Below are positions 15,860-23,297 of a DNA stretch of 39,672 nucleotides, one piece after another. A program made the translations under genes and the position numbers. The DNA comes from an uncultured Mailhella sp. (GTDB taxonomy: Bacteria > Desulfobacterota > Desulfovibrionia > Desulfovibrionales > Desulfovibrionaceae). A model generated the notes under the pieces. The model saw only the letters and a program-made list of their open reading frames with translations. It was not told the DNA's origin and made no database searches. Numbering within the stretch: position 1 is the first letter of the stretch; the number at the start of each line of letters is the position of its first letter. Location of the stretch: the NCBI GenBank assembly GCA_944322695.1, contig CALUPQ010000084.1, forward strand, positions 1-39,672, given 5' to 3'.

Positions 15860-17008
15860 ATGAAAGAACAGATTTTCTATCACTGCAACGTGGTTACGGA
15901 ACACGATGTCATCAGCGGCCACGTGCTCGTCCGTGACGGACGCATCGCCGCCGTGGAGGAAGGGACGCCCATTCTTTCCCATGCGACGGACGCCGTGGAT
16001 TTGGAAGGCGACTATCTTCTTCCGGGGCTTGTGGAGCTTCATACGGACAACCTTGAAAAGCATATCCTGCCCCGGCCCAAGGTGCTCTGGCCCCAGCCGG
16101 AATCGGCCTTCTTCGCCCACGACGCGCAGATTGTGGCCTCGGGCATCACAACGGTGTTTGATGCGCTTTCCGTCGGCGAGTATCATGACAAGGGGCGCAT
16201 CGCCATGCTCGGCGAGGCCGTGGAAGCGCTTAATCACTGCCGCGAAAGCGGACAGCTGCGCGCGGAACACCTGCTGCATCTGCGCTGCGAGGTGGCGGAC
16301 CCGCGCATGCAGGAGCTGTTCTTCCCCCTTTCCGACAACCCCGGTCTGCACCTCGTGTCCCTCATGGACCACACTCCGGGTCAGCGTCAGTGGCGCAATA
16401 CCGAAAGCTACCGTACCTACTACAGCAACACCATATCGTGGACGGACGACGAGTTTAAGAAAATGGTGGACGAGCTTCGGGCCCGGCGGGACTTATGTGC
16501 GGACAGCAACGCCGCCTCGGTCATGGCGTTCTGCCGCGAGCGCCATCTGCCCATGGCCAGCCACGACGATACCCTGGTGGAACATGTGAACGAAGCCCTT
16601 GCCAACGGCATACGCATCAGCGAGTTTCCCACCACGGAGGAAGCGGCCCGCCACGCCTCGGAAAACGGCATGACGGTGCTCATGGGCGCGCCCAACATCG
16701 TGCGGGGCGGTTCGCATTCCGGCAACGTGTCGGCGGAAAGCGTTGCCCGGGAAGGCTATCTCGGCGCGCTTTCTTCCGATTATGTGCCCATCAGTCTCAT
16801 CAGCGCGGTCTTCGCCCTGAAAGAGAGAGACGTCATGCCTCTGCCTGAAGCCGTGAGCCTGGTGTCTTCCCACCCCGCCGACGCCGTGGGCCTCAGCGAC
16901 AGGGGACGCATTGCCGAAGGGCTGCGTGCCGACCTTGTGCGCGTGCGGCATCTGGAAGGCGTGCCCGTGGTGCGCAACGTATGGCGCGAAGGGGAAAGGG
17001 TGTTCTGA
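15860..17008 (+). CDS. phnM: Alpha-D-ribose 1-methylphosphonate 5-triphosphate diphosphatase PhnM
   Basis: 382 residues from the ATG at 15860, site AAAAGG at 15845-15850; an upstream ATG at 15824 lacks a site and overlaps phnL. Amidohydrolase-fold metalloenzyme that removes pyrophosphate from the ribosyl triphosphate. The metal site begins with LVELHTDNLEKH; other PhnM blocks are ITTVFDALSVGEYHDKGR, LVSLMDHTPGQRQW, ASHDDTLVEHVNEA, RISEFPTTEEAA and VLMGAPNIVRGGSHSGN. Length is close to E. coli PhnM (378). TGATG coupling to phnN. Confidence 0.96.
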   Translation: MKEQIFYHCNVVTEHDVISGHVLVRDGRIAAVEEGTPILSHATDAVDLEGDYLLPGLVELHTDNLEKHILPRPKVLWPQPESAFFAHDAQIVASGITTVFDALSVGEYHDKGRIAMLGEAVEALNHCRESGQLRAEHLLHLRCEVADPRMQELFFPLSDNPGLHLVSLMDHTPGQRQWRNTESYRTYYSNTISWTDDEFKKMVDELRARRDLCADSNAASVMAFCRERHLPMASHDDTLVEHVNEALANGIRISEFPTTEEAARHASENGMTVLMGAPNIVRGGSHSGNVSAESVAREGYLGALSSDYVPISLISAVFALKERDVMPLPEAVSLVSSHPADAVGLSDRGRIAEGLRADLVRVRHLEGVPVVRNVWREGERVF

Positions 17009-17571
17009 TGCGCGGCAGGCTCGTCTATGTCATGGGGCCTTCAGGCGCGGGGAAGGATTCGCTGCTCGACATGCTGCGGCAGACGTTCTGCGGGCAGCCT
17101 GTCGCCTTTCCGAGGCGCTACATCACAAGGCCTTCCTCAGCCGGGGGCGAAAGACATATTCCCATAACCCCTGAGCATTTCAGGCATCTTGAAGAGCAGG
17201 GATACTTTTCCCTGCACTGGGCCAGCCACGGCTACCTGTACGGCATAGCGGCCAGTACGGAAGCGGCGCTTGAGTGCGGCGTTTCCCTCATCGTCAACGG
17301 TTCCCGCGCGGCCTTTCCCCAGGCTCTGCACCGCTATCCCGACCTTCTGCCCGTGCTCGTCACCGTTCCGCCGGACATACTCCGCGAAAGGCTCGTGAAG
17401 CGCGGGCGGGAATCCGGGGAGGAGCTGGAGGAAAGGCTCAGAGCCGCCTTCATGCCCGTTCCCGAAGAGAACGCTGTCCCGTACTGGATACGGCTCGACA
17501 ATTCCGGCCCTCTGGAACAGAACGCCCGGGCGCTGACGGCATCCCTCAAGGGGGCTCTCGGCCTCGCCTGA
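17008..17571 (+). CDS. phnN: Ribose 1,5-bisphosphate phosphokinase PhnN
   Basis: 187 residues from the ATG overlapping the phnM stop by one base. P-loop kinase of the guanylate-kinase type: GPSGAGKDSLLDML, RRYITRPSSAGGERHIP, LHWASHGYLYGI and VNGSRAAFPQA are diagnostic. It phosphorylates ribose 1,5-bisphosphate to PRPP, returning the phosphonate-derived phosphate to nucleotide synthesis. It is the last gene of the operon. A related second copy lies at 18819-19460 on the other strand. Confidence 0.95.
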   Translation: MRGRLVYVMGPSGAGKDSLLDMLRQTFCGQPVAFPRRYITRPSSAGGERHIPITPEHFRHLEEQGYFSLHWASHGYLYGIAASTEAALECGVSLIVNGSRAAFPQALHRYPDLLPVLVTVPPDILRERLVKRGRESGEELEERLRAAFMPVPEENAVPYWIRLDNSGPLEQNARALTASLKGALGLA

Positions 17572-17819: not shown

Positions 17820-18248
17820 ATGAAAATTACGACGAAGAATGTACTGGAAGGTGTGGTCACGGCCGTGAAGAAAGGCGCGGTGAACGACGAAGTCTCCATC
17901 GACCTCAAGGGCGGTCTCAAGGTTTCCGCCATCGTGACCAGCCAGAGCACCGAAACGCTGGGTCTCAAGCCCGGCAAGGAAGTGCTGGCCATGGTGAAGG
18001 GCATCAACGTGCTGCTGGCCAGCGACTTGGAAGGCTACAGCTTCTCTTCCCGCAACATGCTGCCCGGCACCGTGAAGGGCGTGAAGAAGGGACAGATTAT
18101 GGCCAGCGTGGCCGTGGAACTCGACAACGGCGACCGTCTGACCTCCGTATGCACGGTGGACAGCGCCGAGGATGCCGGCATTGCCGAAGGCGTGCGCGTG
18201 CAGGCCGCCATCAAGGCTCCTCATGTGATTCTCGCTGCGAAGAACTAA
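17820..18248 (+). CDS. Molybdate-binding di-TOBE (molbindin, Mop-type) protein
   Basis: 142 residues in two similar TOBE/Mop domains: residues about 6-65 (NVLEGVVTAVKKGAVNDEVSI, TLGLKPGKEVLAMVKGINVLL) and about 76-140 (NMLPGTVKGVKKG, DAGIAEGVRVQAAIKAPHVIL). There is no DNA-binding or ATPase domain, so this is a free-standing molbindin that binds molybdate or tungstate in the cytoplasm for storage or buffering. It has its own promoter and terminator. It converges on a Moco-riboswitch-like unit on the other strand, which supports a role in Mo/W metabolism. Confidence 0.92.
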   Translation: MKITTKNVLEGVVTAVKKGAVNDEVSIDLKGGLKVSAIVTSQSTETLGLKPGKEVLAMVKGINVLLASDLEGYSFSSRNMLPGTVKGVKKGQIMASVAVELDNGDRLTSVCTVDSAEDAGIAEGVRVQAAIKAPHVILAAKN

Positions 18249-18287: not shown

Positions 18288-18316
18288 AAAAAGCCGGCCT
18301 GCGGGCCGGCTTTTTT
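18288..18316. terminator. Bidirectional terminator shared by molbindin gene and the minus-strand riboswitch unit
   Basis: GCCGGCC pairs with GGCCGGC around a TGCG loop (stem about 18293-18310). Six T follow on the plus strand and five on the minus strand, so the hairpin can end transcripts from both sides. The stop codon of the minus-strand small ORF (18316-18318) touches its edge. Confidence 0.92.
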
Positions 18317-18444
18317 CATGCTTTCGGAGGAGCGAGGGCATAACGAGCTTCTTCCTTTGAATATCGCGTCAGGGATGTGGCTTCCGTTATCCTGCCATGG
18401 GCCAGAGCCGCCGCAACACAGAAGAGGAGAGGAAATCTTTTCAT
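18316..18444 (-). CDS. Small ORF (42 codons) downstream of Moco-like RNA; possible exported peptide or remnant
   Basis: ATG at 18444-18442 with GGAG at 18454-18451, 6 nt spacing. The product starts MKRFPLLFCVAAALAHG, which looks like a signal peptide, followed by about 25 polar residues with no recognised motif. It ends exactly at a terminator and lies between a riboswitch-like RNA and that terminator, so it occupies the place of the regulated gene. It may be a real small exported protein, or the first codons of an exported Mo/W-binding protein gene whose rest has been deleted. No family assignment is possible. Confidence 0.42.
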   Translation of the reverse strand: MKRFPLLFCVAAALAHGRITEATSLTRYSKEEARYALAPPKA

Positions 18445-18450
18445 GCGATT

Positions 18451-18506
18451 CTCCATGCCGCGCATACGCGCGTTTCCGGTGTTGCTCACAGAGGAAAACA
18501 CCAGAA
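18451..18506 (-). promoter_or_regulatory. Putative expression platform of the Moco-like RNA
   Basis: On the minus strand GCGGCATGGA occurs twice: as the P1 3' strand and again at 18461-18452, where it includes the start of the GGAG ribosome binding site of the small ORF. The P1 5' strand can therefore pair with either. Two further hairpins lie between: TTCTGGTGTT/AACACCGGAA (18506-18474) and CGCGC-GTAT-GCGCG (18472-18459), the latter competing for the second copy. This layout fits control of translation initiation. Confidence 0.5.
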
Positions 18507-18556
18507 CCATGAATGCGGGCGGTATGTGGACATGGCTCAAGCGCAGCGTTTTCTTT

Positions 18557-18638
18557 CCATGCCGCAGGGGCATTTACGGGAGGCGGTTCCGTTTCCAGAG
18601 CCACCCTGTGAGCAGAAACTCAGGTCGGAGCGGCATGG
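18557..18638 (-). promoter_or_regulatory. Moco/Tuco riboswitch-like RNA (molybdenum or tungsten cofactor)
   Basis: Read on the minus strand: P1 is CCATGCCGC (18638-18630) with GCGGCATGG (18565-18557), 9 perfect pairs. Inside are P2 (CCTG with CAGG, plus AG/CT), and a GGTGG/CCGCC stem capped by TCTG-GAAA-CGGA with a GNRA tetraloop. Next comes CGCCTCCCGTA, which I recognise as the conserved 3' block of the E. coli moaA Moco RNA, and TGGAAAG after P1 also agrees with it. P3 is almost absent, as in the variant attributed to tungsten cofactor. It lies between a promoter and a small ORF. The family call is from memory of the consensus; a covariance search would settle it. Confidence 0.65.
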
Positions 18639-18677
18639 CGCGGGGCTTTAGCCGGACCGACTCGAAAACTTATTTTT

Positions 18678-18706
18678 GAAATAGACAAGCGCCGTGGCTT
18701 TGTCAA
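18678..18706 (-). promoter_or_regulatory. Promoter of the riboswitch/small-ORF unit
   Basis: On the minus strand TTGACA (18706-18701) is followed by a 17-bp spacer and TATTTC (18683-18678). Predicted transcription would start near 18671 and give an RNA of about 380 nt to the terminator. The -10 match is moderate. Confidence 0.55.
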
Positions 18707-18818: not shown

Positions 18819-19460
18819 TCAGCGCCGGCGAAGGCGCTCTCGAAGCTCCTCCGCCAGGACGAGCGCGGCCTCGTGCAGCGAGGATGAGTTGTCGATGCGT
18901 ATCCAGTCCGAAACGTGTTCTTCTCCGGGAATGGGCATGGAGGCTTTTTGCAGGCGGGCGTTCAGCTCCGGTTCCGATTCGCGGCCGCGTTTTAAAAGCC
19001 GTTCACGAAGAACGGCGACAGGCGCGCTGACGAGCACGGGCAGCAGGTCGGGAAACAGGGCCAGCGCCTGCGGAAAGGCTGCGCGGGAGCCGTTGACGAG
19101 CAGGAAGAGGCCCTGCTCCAGAACGGCGGTGGAAGAAGAGGAAATGCCGTAGAGGCGGCCGTGGCTTGCCCAGTGCAGGGCGAAGAAGCCTTGCGCCGCA
19201 AGGCGTTCGAAACGGTTTCGGCTCAGGGGAATGTGTTTTTCTCCCCCGTCCGACGCCGGGCGGGTGATGTAGCGTACGGCATAAGCCAGAGGCAGGTCTG
19301 GAACGATGCTTCGCAGCTCTTCCAGAAGGCTGTCCTTTCCCACCCCGGAAGCGCCCATGACATAGACGAGTCTGCCGCGGGGCGGAACTTTGGGGAAGAA
19401 GCTCCGGACCTTTTTTGAGGGAAGAAGAGTGTCGCAGTACAGGGGCTGCGCTTCTGTCAT
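18819..19460 (-). CDS. Second PhnN-like ribose 1,5-bisphosphate phosphokinase
   Basis: 213 residues; AAGGAG precedes the ATG at 19460. Residues from about 29 on match the operon PhnN closely: GRLVYVMGASGVGKDSLLEEL, RYITRPASDGGEKHIPL, LHWASHGRLYGIS, VNGSRAAFPQALALFPDLLPV and LRERLLKRGRE. The first 28 residues are extra. All nucleotide-binding and substrate blocks look intact, so it is probably active. It lies outside the phn operon, on the opposite strand and alone. It may have a different regulation or a related substrate. No terminator is obvious after it. Confidence 0.85.
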   Translation of the reverse strand: MTEAQPLYCDTLLPSKKVRSFFPKVPPRGRLVYVMGASGVGKDSLLEELRSIVPDLPLAYAVRYITRPASDGGEKHIPLSRNRFERLAAQGFFALHWASHGRLYGISSSSTAVLEQGLFLLVNGSRAAFPQALALFPDLLPVLVSAPVAVLRERLLKRGRESEPELNARLQKASMPIPGEEHVSDWIRIDNSSSLHEAALVLAEELRERLRRR

Positions 19461-21147: not shown

Positions 21148-21846
21148 TCAGTCTTTCTTTGTGCCCAGGGTTTCGAAGGATTCCACGGGGGTACGGAAGG
21201 CGATGCCGGAGCCGGGCTCCGCGTTTTGAAAGTCCGCCCTGATGCTGTCCATGATGCGCGCGCTGTCGGCTTTGGGGCTGAGAATCATGACCAGTTCCTT
21301 TTCCGGCACGATGGTGATGCCGAAGAAGGTGGCGTCGTCAGGCCTTGCGGTACCGCGGGCATGGATGACGGTGCCGCCCGTGGCGCCGGCGCGGCGAGCC
21401 GCGTCCATGACCTGGTCGGCGCCGCCGTCGTTGACGATGATGGAAAGAAGTTCGTAGCCGGGCGCGTCCTGGCTGTTGTCAGACATGATATCCTCCTGAG
21501 ACTGGGAAAGGGCGGCGGTCGGAGCCGAACACTGGGGACGGAAGACGTCGAGTACGTTGATGGTGAACATGATGCCGCGCGTTCTGGCCAGAGAAGGGGC
21601 GTGACGCAGCGCTTCCATGACGGGCCGTACGAGGTGTGTGGGAAGAAGGCAGTAGAGCAGTTCCTTTTCCACGTCGTCCAGCCCGAGGATGCGGAGCCAT
21701 TTGCTCTGCGCGGTGCCGCGGCCCATGAGGACGGTGCCGCCGAGAGCGCCGGCCTTCCGGGCTTCGGCCACCACGTCATCGCATTTGTGTTTTTCTATGA
21801 CGGCGACGAGCAGCTTGCCCGCGCTTTCACTGGAAGAGGTATTCAT
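21148..21846 (-). CDS. Tandem P-II-like signal protein (two P-II domains)
   Basis: 232 residues from the ATG at 21846, which overlaps the DUF1538 stop. Domain 1 (about 10-105) and domain 2 (about 127-225) are each P-II-like: KLLVAVIEKHKCDDVV with AGALGGTVLMGRGTA, and YELLSIIVNDGGADQVM with AGATGGTVIHARGTA. The linker (about 106-126) holds an in-frame ATG at 21486 preceded by AGGAGG, so a separate 112-residue second domain, the normal P-II length, may also be made. The canonical GlnB T-loop tyrosine region is not evident. P-II proteins bind nucleotides and control transporters; the DUF1538 partner is the likely target. Confidence 0.85.
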   Translation of the reverse strand: MNTSSSESAGKLLVAVIEKHKCDDVVAEARKAGALGGTVLMGRGTAQSKWLRILGLDDVEKELLYCLLPTHLVRPVMEALRHAPSLARTRGIMFTINVLDVFRPQCSAPTAALSQSQEDIMSDNSQDAPGYELLSIIVNDGGADQVMDAARRAGATGGTVIHARGTARPDDATFFGITIVPEKELVMILSPKADSARIMDSIRADFQNAEPGSGIAFRTPVESFETLGTKKD

Positions 21847-23297
21847 GAGCGAACTCCCGTCTTGCGGCTGAAAACGATGCCCAGAAGCTGGATGGCGATG
21901 AGGGGCGTCATGGCAATCATGGCGATGCAGCCGAAGGCATCCACGGCGGGATTGCCTCCGACCCCCTTGGAGACTCCGAGCATGAAGGCCAGAATGAAGG
22001 TGGAGGCCATGGGTCCGGAGGCCACGCCGCCGGAGTCGAAGGCGATGGCGGTGAACATGCGCGGACACAGGCGCATGAGCAGCATGGCGATGACATAGCC
22101 CGGTGCCAGGAAGACCCAGAGACTCGTGCCCGTGGTCACCCTGTACATGGCAATGCCCACGGCCAGCGAAACGCCGGCGGAAAGGGCGGCCAGCATAAGG
22201 CCGCGCCTGATGGCGCCGCCGGAGACCTGCTGTACCTGTTCGGTGAGAATCCATACGGCGGGTTCCGCACATACCACCACGGCCCCGAGCACAAGCGCCA
22301 CGGGGATGAGCAGAAAGCGGTTTTCCGGAGCGGAGAGCAGCGCCCCCAGAGCGTCGCCTGCGGGCATGAAGCCGCCCTTTACGCCGAGGAAGAACAGAAC
22401 GACGCCGAGGAAGGTGTAGATGAGACCCATGACCGTGCGCAGCGTCTGTCTGCGGGAGAGCCGGATGAGGAACAGCCGGAACAGCAGGAACAGCACGGCC
22501 AGCGGCCCGAGGGCCATGGACACTTCATGGACGACTTCCGGCAGCAGACGAAGGAAGTGTTCGACAAGTCCTTCCTGGACGGATGCAGCCGCGGCCTGAT
22601 TTTCCGGCATGGCCGGAGAGGCGAAGAGCCCCAGCATCAGCACGGCGAGGATGGGGCCTACCGAAGCCAGTCCCACGAATCCGAAGCTGTCGTCCCCGGC
22701 ATGGCTGCCGCCGCGCACCGCCGCCACGCCCACGCCGAGCGCCATGATGAAGGGCACCGTCATGGGGCCGGTGGTGGCTCCGCCGGCGTCGAAACCTATG
22801 CCCAGAAAGAGTCCGGGGGTGAAGTATGCGCAGAGAAATACCGCTCCGTAGCAGAGGAAGAGCAGCAGCTTGAGCGGAAGCTGAAAAATGATGCGCGCCA
22901 TGGCCACGGCCACGAAAAATCCGACCCCGGCCGCAATGATGCAGACGAGGGCCATGGGAGCGATGACCGGAGCAACCCCCGTGACCTGAGCCGCCAGCAC
23001 CTGTACGTCCGGCTCGGCCACGGTGATGATGAACCCGACCACGAAGCCCGCGGCCAGCATGAGGGCAAGGTTGCGCTTGCCGGTAAGGGTGGAGCCCACC
23101 TTCTGCCCCACGGGCAGCACGCCGATGTCGGCCCCCACCAGAAAAAGTCCGAGGCCGATGATGAACAGCACCGCTCCTGCGAGAAAGCTCGGCAGAGCGT
23201 CGCCGAGCGGAGCAACCGTCAGGTGAAGCAGAAGAACCAGAATGACTATCGGCACTACCGATATCACGGACTCCCTGCATTTCTCGATGAAGAGCAT
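21843..23297 (-). CDS. DUF1538 family membrane protein
   Basis: 484 residues, about 12-13 membrane segments, ATG at 23297 with AAGGA upstream. Built of two similar halves: GIGFDAGGATTGPMTVPFIMA in the first half matches AIAFDSGGVASGPMASTFIL in the second, and EPDVQVLAAQVTGV matches EPAVWILTEQVQQV. Such a repeat with GP-containing discontinuous segments is typical of secondary transporters, but the substrate of DUF1538 is not known to me. Its gene overlaps the tandem P-II gene by 4 bp, so the pair probably forms a P-II-gated transporter. Confidence 0.85.
   Translation of the reverse strand: MLFIEKCRESVISVVPIVILVLLLHLTVAPLGDALPSFLAGAVLFIIGLGLFLVGADIGVLPVGQKVGSTLTGKRNLALMLAAGFVVGFIITVAEPDVQVLAAQVTGVAPVIAPMALVCIIAAGVGFFVAVAMARIIFQLPLKLLLFLCYGAVFLCAYFTPGLFLGIGFDAGGATTGPMTVPFIMALGVGVAAVRGGSHAGDDSFGFVGLASVGPILAVLMLGLFASPAMPENQAAAASVQEGLVEHFLRLLPEVVHEVSMALGPLAVLFLLFRLFLIRLSRRQTLRTVMGLIYTFLGVVLFFLGVKGGFMPAGDALGALLSAPENRFLLIPVALVLGAVVVCAEPAVWILTEQVQQVSGGAIRRGLMLAALSAGVSLAVGIAMYRVTTGTSLWVFLAPGYVIAMLLMRLCPRMFTAIAFDSGGVASGPMASTFILAFMLGVSKGVGGNPAVDAFGCIAMIAMTPLIAIQLLGIVFSRKTGVRS

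Follow-up and report, generated by a model that had tools for sequence, protein, structure and literature searches.

An intact riboswitch of the molybdenum-cofactor (Moco) family, together with the leader that carries its start site, has very probably been orphaned in the window, here the whole stretch of 39,672 nt analysed (uncultured Mailhella sp., contig CALUPQ010000084.1), by a deletion of ~3 kb that took the rest of modA, modB, modC and nearly all of a DUF364-family gene. Only 15 modA-like codons lie behind the riboswitch because the deletion likely joined the leader to the end of the operon. The locus looks like a known riboswitch class and not a new small-protein system.

The covariance-model scan called for by the earlier note, which had recognized a Moco-type riboswitch, confirmed this identity: Rfam RF01055 matches the window at 18679-18534 on the minus strand over model positions 1-135 (66.3 bits against a gathering cut-off of 36; E-value of 5.9e-14). 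The same scan over the family found RF01055 in 17/288 genomes at E<=0.001 and in 15/288 over the cut-off, giving 27 listed places of which 25 are over the cut-off. Two of the further places lie in the genome of the window itself (206 contigs, 76.75% complete), on contigs C165 (L001) and C179 (L003). The window copy shares with the family the full-length match, P1, P3, a GNRA-capped P4 and the conserved junction. Leaders from 14 of the 25 places were aligned (10 window-type, 2 gene-less and 2 preceding an aldehyde dehydrogenase; 13 distinct rows), leaving out 8 that precede a molybdopterin-domain gene, 2 that precede a canonical modA, and L042. In the RNAalifold consensus of these 14 leaders the family fold (P1, P2-P4) is retained, with the P1 pairing GTTTTC/GAAAAC kept in 14/14 and P2 pairs changed on both sides in 1-2/14. 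Both the Rfam structure line and RNAalifold place P1 at 18669-18664 with 18553-18548, instead of the 9-bp helix CCATGCCGC/GCGGCATGG that had been proposed. That helix is paired in 83.8% of 117 cells and has one pair with both sides changed; 316/500 shuffles do as well, and the covariation check thus lends it no support beyond shuffles; its GCGGCATGG strand is variant in L029/L030 (GGGGTTGG) and L037 (CGGCTGG). Upstream of the aptamer, a promoter-like TTGACA (18706-18701) and TATTTC (18683-18678), spaced by 17 nt, are present on the minus strand (18706-18678) where they had been described. TTGACA recurs in the leaders of relatives, beginning 37-39 nt 5' of P1 in 12/14 of those compared, while the second hexamer matches at only 3-4 of 6 positions and a strict promoter scan reported nothing at the riboswitch locus.

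The 42-codon ORF noted behind the aptamer extends from 18444 to 18316 (minus strand) and is preceded by a GGAG ribosome-binding site at 18454-18451. Its first 15 codons (MKRFPLLFCVAAALA, 18444-18400) are the signal-peptide start of a modA-like gene, 100% identical to the relative G194 and contained in a 37-residue match at 18510-18400. Of the 10 genomes of the genus that carry the riboswitch, 9 have a full-length modA-like gene behind this leader, with the same ribosome-binding site and ATG, and the one that does not is the genome of the window. The G194 copy encodes a periplasmic binding protein (PF13531, 149.8 bits) that scores 55.2 bits with the modA model TIGR01256, below its cut-off of 62.5, and molybdate is therefore the predicted ligand, with tungstate still possible. 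A blastn alignment of the window with G194 contig C280 (L033) runs at 81% identity over 1,189 aligned nt (19573-18399) and then ends. Past 18400 modA homology ceases, and from 18401 the letters CCC ATG GCA GGA TAA encode, in another frame, P-M-A-G-stop (18401-18387), which is how the DUF364-family gene ends in G194 contig C231 (FCPMAG-stop). At the collinear place 15 of 18 nt agree, for which the chance is ~2e-6 (base match 0.25) to 3e-5 (0.3) when 7 offsets are allowed. The putative deletion junction is placed from these comparisons at 18400/18401. Further downstream, 18328-17805, comprising the terminator and a Mop gene, display 88% identity to C231 over 526 aligned nt. On their own, the 84 nt between junction and terminator (18402-18319) align with a score of 35, and the best of 500 shuffles reaches 38; as they do not beat the shuffles, they were not used as support for the deletion.

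The frame had been taken for a cofactor-controlled small-protein gene. A dedicated Moco-controlled gene of this kind would account for an open 42-codon frame with a ribosome-binding site and a signal-peptide-like start, but 15 of the codons belong to modA, the other 27 read out of frame through the DUF364 stop, and the product is without a Pfam match. Moreover, only codons 1-15 of the frame are common to relatives, where the same start codon opens modA in 9 genomes. What reads as a small ORF is the truncated beginning of a modA-like gene, continued out of frame into a DUF364-family tail, which leaves the small-protein gene unsupported, contradicted by the comparison and extremely unlikely.

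The operon that the window has very probably lost is found whole in G190, where riboswitch, modA, modB (permease), modC (ATPase) and the DUF364-family gene are contiguous on one contig; on G190 coordinates the missing piece measures ~3.0 kb. The DUF364 assignment (31.5 bits) was made on the G194 C231 copy. Full-length matches to the G194 modA-like protein (E<1e-100) occur in 9/19 genomes of the genus. The genome of the window yields the stub and one 24% match only, and 24-26% matches are also present in G177, G189 and G194. With the lost permease as query, the best match in the same genome is 38% identical, and no relative of the DUF364-family protein was found there, an empty answer that says little without a positive genome in that search. 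Thus, no copy of the lost modA or modB was found elsewhere in the assembly, with modA, modB and DUF364 queried, although its fragmentation and incompleteness make this absence weak evidence.

That fragmentation is what would favour an assembly artefact, with the operon intact in the organism. This is very unlikely: the longest word common to the 90-nt neighbourhoods of the two breakpoints, for which related sequences stood in, has a length of 6 nt, which is not enough for a graph misjoin, and both flanks of the window belong to a single neighbourhood in relatives, while the removed modA, modB and DUF364-family genes were not recovered on other contigs. Two further observations were counted against a deletion. 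The G194 contigs that match the left flank (C280, with L033) and the right flank (C231, with L077) end in different modB alleles, and the riboswitch is without decay. The G194 bin may mix strains or contain two copies, as its two modB alleles differ.

The absence of decay is apparent from the comparison of the window with L033, which reveals 2 differences over 122 aligned nt of the aptamer and 1 over 107 nt from the platform through codon 15, or 3 over 229 nt combined. Elsewhere the two sequences differ at 8/41 positions of the loop spacer, 117/634 of the PhnN-like gene and 33/100 of the upstream spacer. Relative to eight outgroup leaders, 0-2 changes in aptamer and platform are peculiar to the window and 1-2 to L033. 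This preservation means that the deletion is recent or that the leader is still useful. In the genome of the window the switch would still be transcribed, but all it would control is a peptide of 42 residues that has no role, and the cell would depend for molybdate uptake on the ModA and ModB encoded on contig C179. The 38% permease match is a canonical ModB (232.4 bits; cut-off 182.6) on this 8.8-kb contig, which also holds a canonical ModA (221.2 bits; cut-off 62.5) and the riboswitch L003. Molybdate uptake is thus predicted to persist and the lost operon may have been redundant.

Directly 3' of the ORF lies a terminator-like hairpin (18315-18288, minus strand) of -20.4 kcal/mol (z -3.97), a stability that none of 200 shuffles attains. 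The fold energy supports the terminator described previously, though a strict terminator scan reported nothing at 18315-18288. The hairpin is also found behind the DUF364-family gene in G194 C231 and is shared with a convergent gene (17820-18248, plus strand) that encodes a molbindin-like protein with a double TOBE/Mop domain (PF03459, 89.8 bits; TIGR00638 Mop, 117.5 bits). The statement that no known Moco gene follows is thus true of the strand of the riboswitch, but it overlooks this convergent neighbour. Among relatives, G178, G187, G189 and G190 (4/9) have the Mop gene in convergent orientation, at 6-14 kb downstream of the switch; in G191 and G192 it is located elsewhere, and in G188 and G193 it is represented by a 32% relative only. 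Antisense action of the riboswitch transcript on the Mop gene was considered and appears unlikely because the terminator-like hairpin separates the two genes. A study of antisense-acting riboswitches gives 24 antisense-acting and 834 sense-acting MOCO cases (PMC9943018). The window resembles the antisense-acting systems in that its riboswitch is convergent to a molybdenum-related gene, and appears to differ in the hairpin between the genes, the arrangement giving no indication of transcription into Mop. On its other side the riboswitch is preceded by a PhnN-like kinase gene (18819-19460, minus strand; TIGR02322, 161.9 bits, cut-off 156) that is syntenic in relatives. Two PhnN-like kinase genes in fact flank the locus, at 16981-17571 (plus strand) and 18819-19460 (minus strand), and share ~60% identity over 172-183 residues; one follows phnM-like genes, the other an ArsR and a permease gene. 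The ArsR gene has upstream of it a DUF1538 protein (421.7 bits; 21151-23294, minus strand) and, overlapping that, a frame containing a P-II domain (56.5 bits).

EutX/Rli55, of the eut type, is a riboswitch-controlled small RNA. The window shares with it a riboswitch that reaches a terminator without an ordinary gene between, but here the gene-less state stems from a truncated operon.

Past P1, the leader contains conserved elements that could act as an expression platform (all coordinates on the minus strand). The decamer GCGGCATGGA occurs exactly twice in the window, as had been noticed, at 18565-18556 and 18461-18452 (at least two copies in 3/100 shuffles), and its second copy overlaps the GGAG ribosome-binding site. 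Of the masking scheme derived from this repeat, the part that stands is that the leader can pair with the ribosome-binding site. The role of CCATGCCGC as the mask is unproven, its pairing with the site being conserved (92.0% of 113 cells) without compensatory change (0 pairs changed on both sides). In the consensus fold of the 14 leaders the site is masked instead by a second CCATG copy (CCATGT, 18535-18530), a pairing kept in 92.1% of 76 cells with 1 pair changed on both sides, which 193/500 shuffles reach; this mask is no better supported than that by CCATGCCGC. A local hairpin ATGCC/GGCAT in the variable loop of the aptamer was tried and rejected (89.1% of 64 cells; 0 pairs changed on both sides).

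A downstream GTTTTC and TGTG.GC are invariant and complementary to GAAAAC and GCTCACAG of the aptamer. In the window, GTTTTC and CTGTGAGC span 18499-18484 and constitute a candidate, nested anti-aptamer pairing with the 3' strand of P1 and with GCTCACAG (18613-18606, complementary to 18491-18484). These helices are paired in 98.9% of 182 cells in 13 distinct leaders and are so nearly invariant that they offer no covariation. The same region forms a hairpin TTCTGGTGTT/AACACCGGAA (18506-18474), the 3' strand of which can alternatively pair with codons 9-11 of the ORF (18419-18413). Pairing of GCAACACC back to GGTGTT is found in 92.3% of 130 cells with 2 pairs changed on both sides (10/500 shuffles; covariation score 5/500), and forward to GTGTTGC of codons 9-11 in 92.3% of 91 cells with 3 such pairs (1/500 shuffles; covariation score 0/500), the changes of the latter being located in L028 and L034. 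As the shuffles ignore relatedness, the support for GCAACACC pairing is moderate. Codons 1-15 reveal no extra constraint, with 92/154 four-fold sites identical compared to 363/561 in codons 61-120.

When either the aptamer or the anti-aptamer fold was enforced, the accessibility of the start site was 0.04 and 0.48, respectively, in the window and 0.45 and 0.03 in L031, and the energy calculations gave no consistent open or closed state across the 14 leaders. Ligand-dependent refolding of the start site is likely. The model for relatives is a switch that controls translation of modA: in the ligand-free state GTTTTC and CTGTGAGC, downstream, would be paired to the aptamer (3' strand of P1 and P3 region), from which bound cofactor would release them, and the leader would then refold around the ribosome-binding site. 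Judged from the transporter context and the E. coli moaA case, plentiful cofactor would most likely repress uptake. In the E. coli moaA riboswitch the ribosome-binding site is located in P1 (Regulski et al. 2008, PMC2408646). This contrasts with the window, where the start site lies ~100 nt downstream and has its own conserved leader. In some leaders that precede molybdopterin-domain genes (L015, L010, L039), TGTGAGC or CGTGAGC, complementary to GCTCAC(AG) of the aptamer, was seen by eye at the ribosome-binding site, a hint that the platform also exists in a shorter form.

The genes downstream of each of the 25 places over the cut-off were read. Ten places are window-type: 9 have a full-length modA-like gene and the window has its stub. 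A gene encoding a molybdopterin-binding domain lies behind 8 (PF00994, 78.3 bits for L015; the other 7 assigned by eye from the N-terminus), a canonical ModA behind 2 (201.5 and 206.7 bits; cut-off 62.5) and an aldehyde dehydrogenase (PF00171) behind 3; the remaining 2, on C165 of the genome of the window (G000) and C166 of G194, are without a close downstream gene in view. A Moco-related gene context was therefore found at 19 of the 24 other places (9 modA-like, 8 molybdopterin-domain, 2 canonical modA). The window itself has the 15-codon modA remnant only, this context being usual and not required for the aptamer. A modABC-like operon is among the contexts named for Moco riboswitches by Regulski et al. 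(PMC2408646), and the copies in relatives share it, while the window copy keeps 15 codons of modA only.

The aldehyde dehydrogenase loci belong to two other genera (L040:8249-10374 in G095; L041, 1911-74, in G108 and L042, 1997-129, in G174, both on the minus strand), with the gene beginning 511 nt, ~670 nt and 272 nt from P1, respectively. A limited literature search did not find aldehyde dehydrogenase as a Moco riboswitch context. Between riboswitch and aldehyde dehydrogenase, G095 and G108 have a short ORF that resembles the modA start; in these two genomes the leader match stops near codon 15 and resumes only inside the aldehyde dehydrogenase gene. The second place with a modA-like start (L038:4980-5279 on C165; L034 on C166) is syntenic in the two genomes, with 80% identity over 2.8 kb upstream and a leader match to about codon 16. 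On C165 the next nameable frame of the same strand lies ~1.1 kb on (PF10589, 62.0 bits; PF14691, 44.8 bits), and C166 ends ~300 nt past the leader, so that a downstream gene may lie off the contig.

These loci bear on whether the leader and ~15 codons form a self-standing Moco-gated cassette, a leader ORF or regulatory RNA useful without modA, of which the window would be one case. The undecayed switch of the window, the C165/C166 locus with its leader kept and no close gene behind, the loss of the leader match near codon 15 in G095 and G108, and the three pairs changed on both sides between leader and codons 9-11 are consistent with such a unit. However, in the window the hairpin follows at once with nothing behind it on that strand, the sequence after codon 15 differs between loci, codons 1-15 do not exceed later codons in the conservation of their four-fold sites, and at C166 the contig end may hide the gene. 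As an explanation of the window the cassette is distinctly unlikely, and the deletion of a modABC-type operon is preferred.

As a reading of the family, the C165/C166 and G095/G108 loci, which keep the cassette without modA, point to a Moco-gated leader ORF. On this account, which is rather unlikely, the Desulfovibrionaceae Moco switch and ~15 modA codons would be a detachable cassette, separated from modA on at least three occasions (window; C165/C166; aldehyde dehydrogenase), with the short ORF as a Moco-gated leader whose translation decides on the synthesis of the NAD-type aldehyde dehydrogenase encoded downstream, an enzyme that would back up aldehyde oxidation dependent on molybdenum or tungsten. 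The window is the weakest case for it because of the terminator-like hairpin right behind the ORF. The three Moco riboswitch-aldehyde dehydrogenase loci are a lead in relatives, and the comparison of leaders yields a testable model of the expression platform for Desulfovibrionaceae Moco switches. The window provides a natural experiment in which the sensor is intact and its operon likely gone, and with which the rate of decay of an unused riboswitch, and any remaining action of an orphan leader, could be studied.
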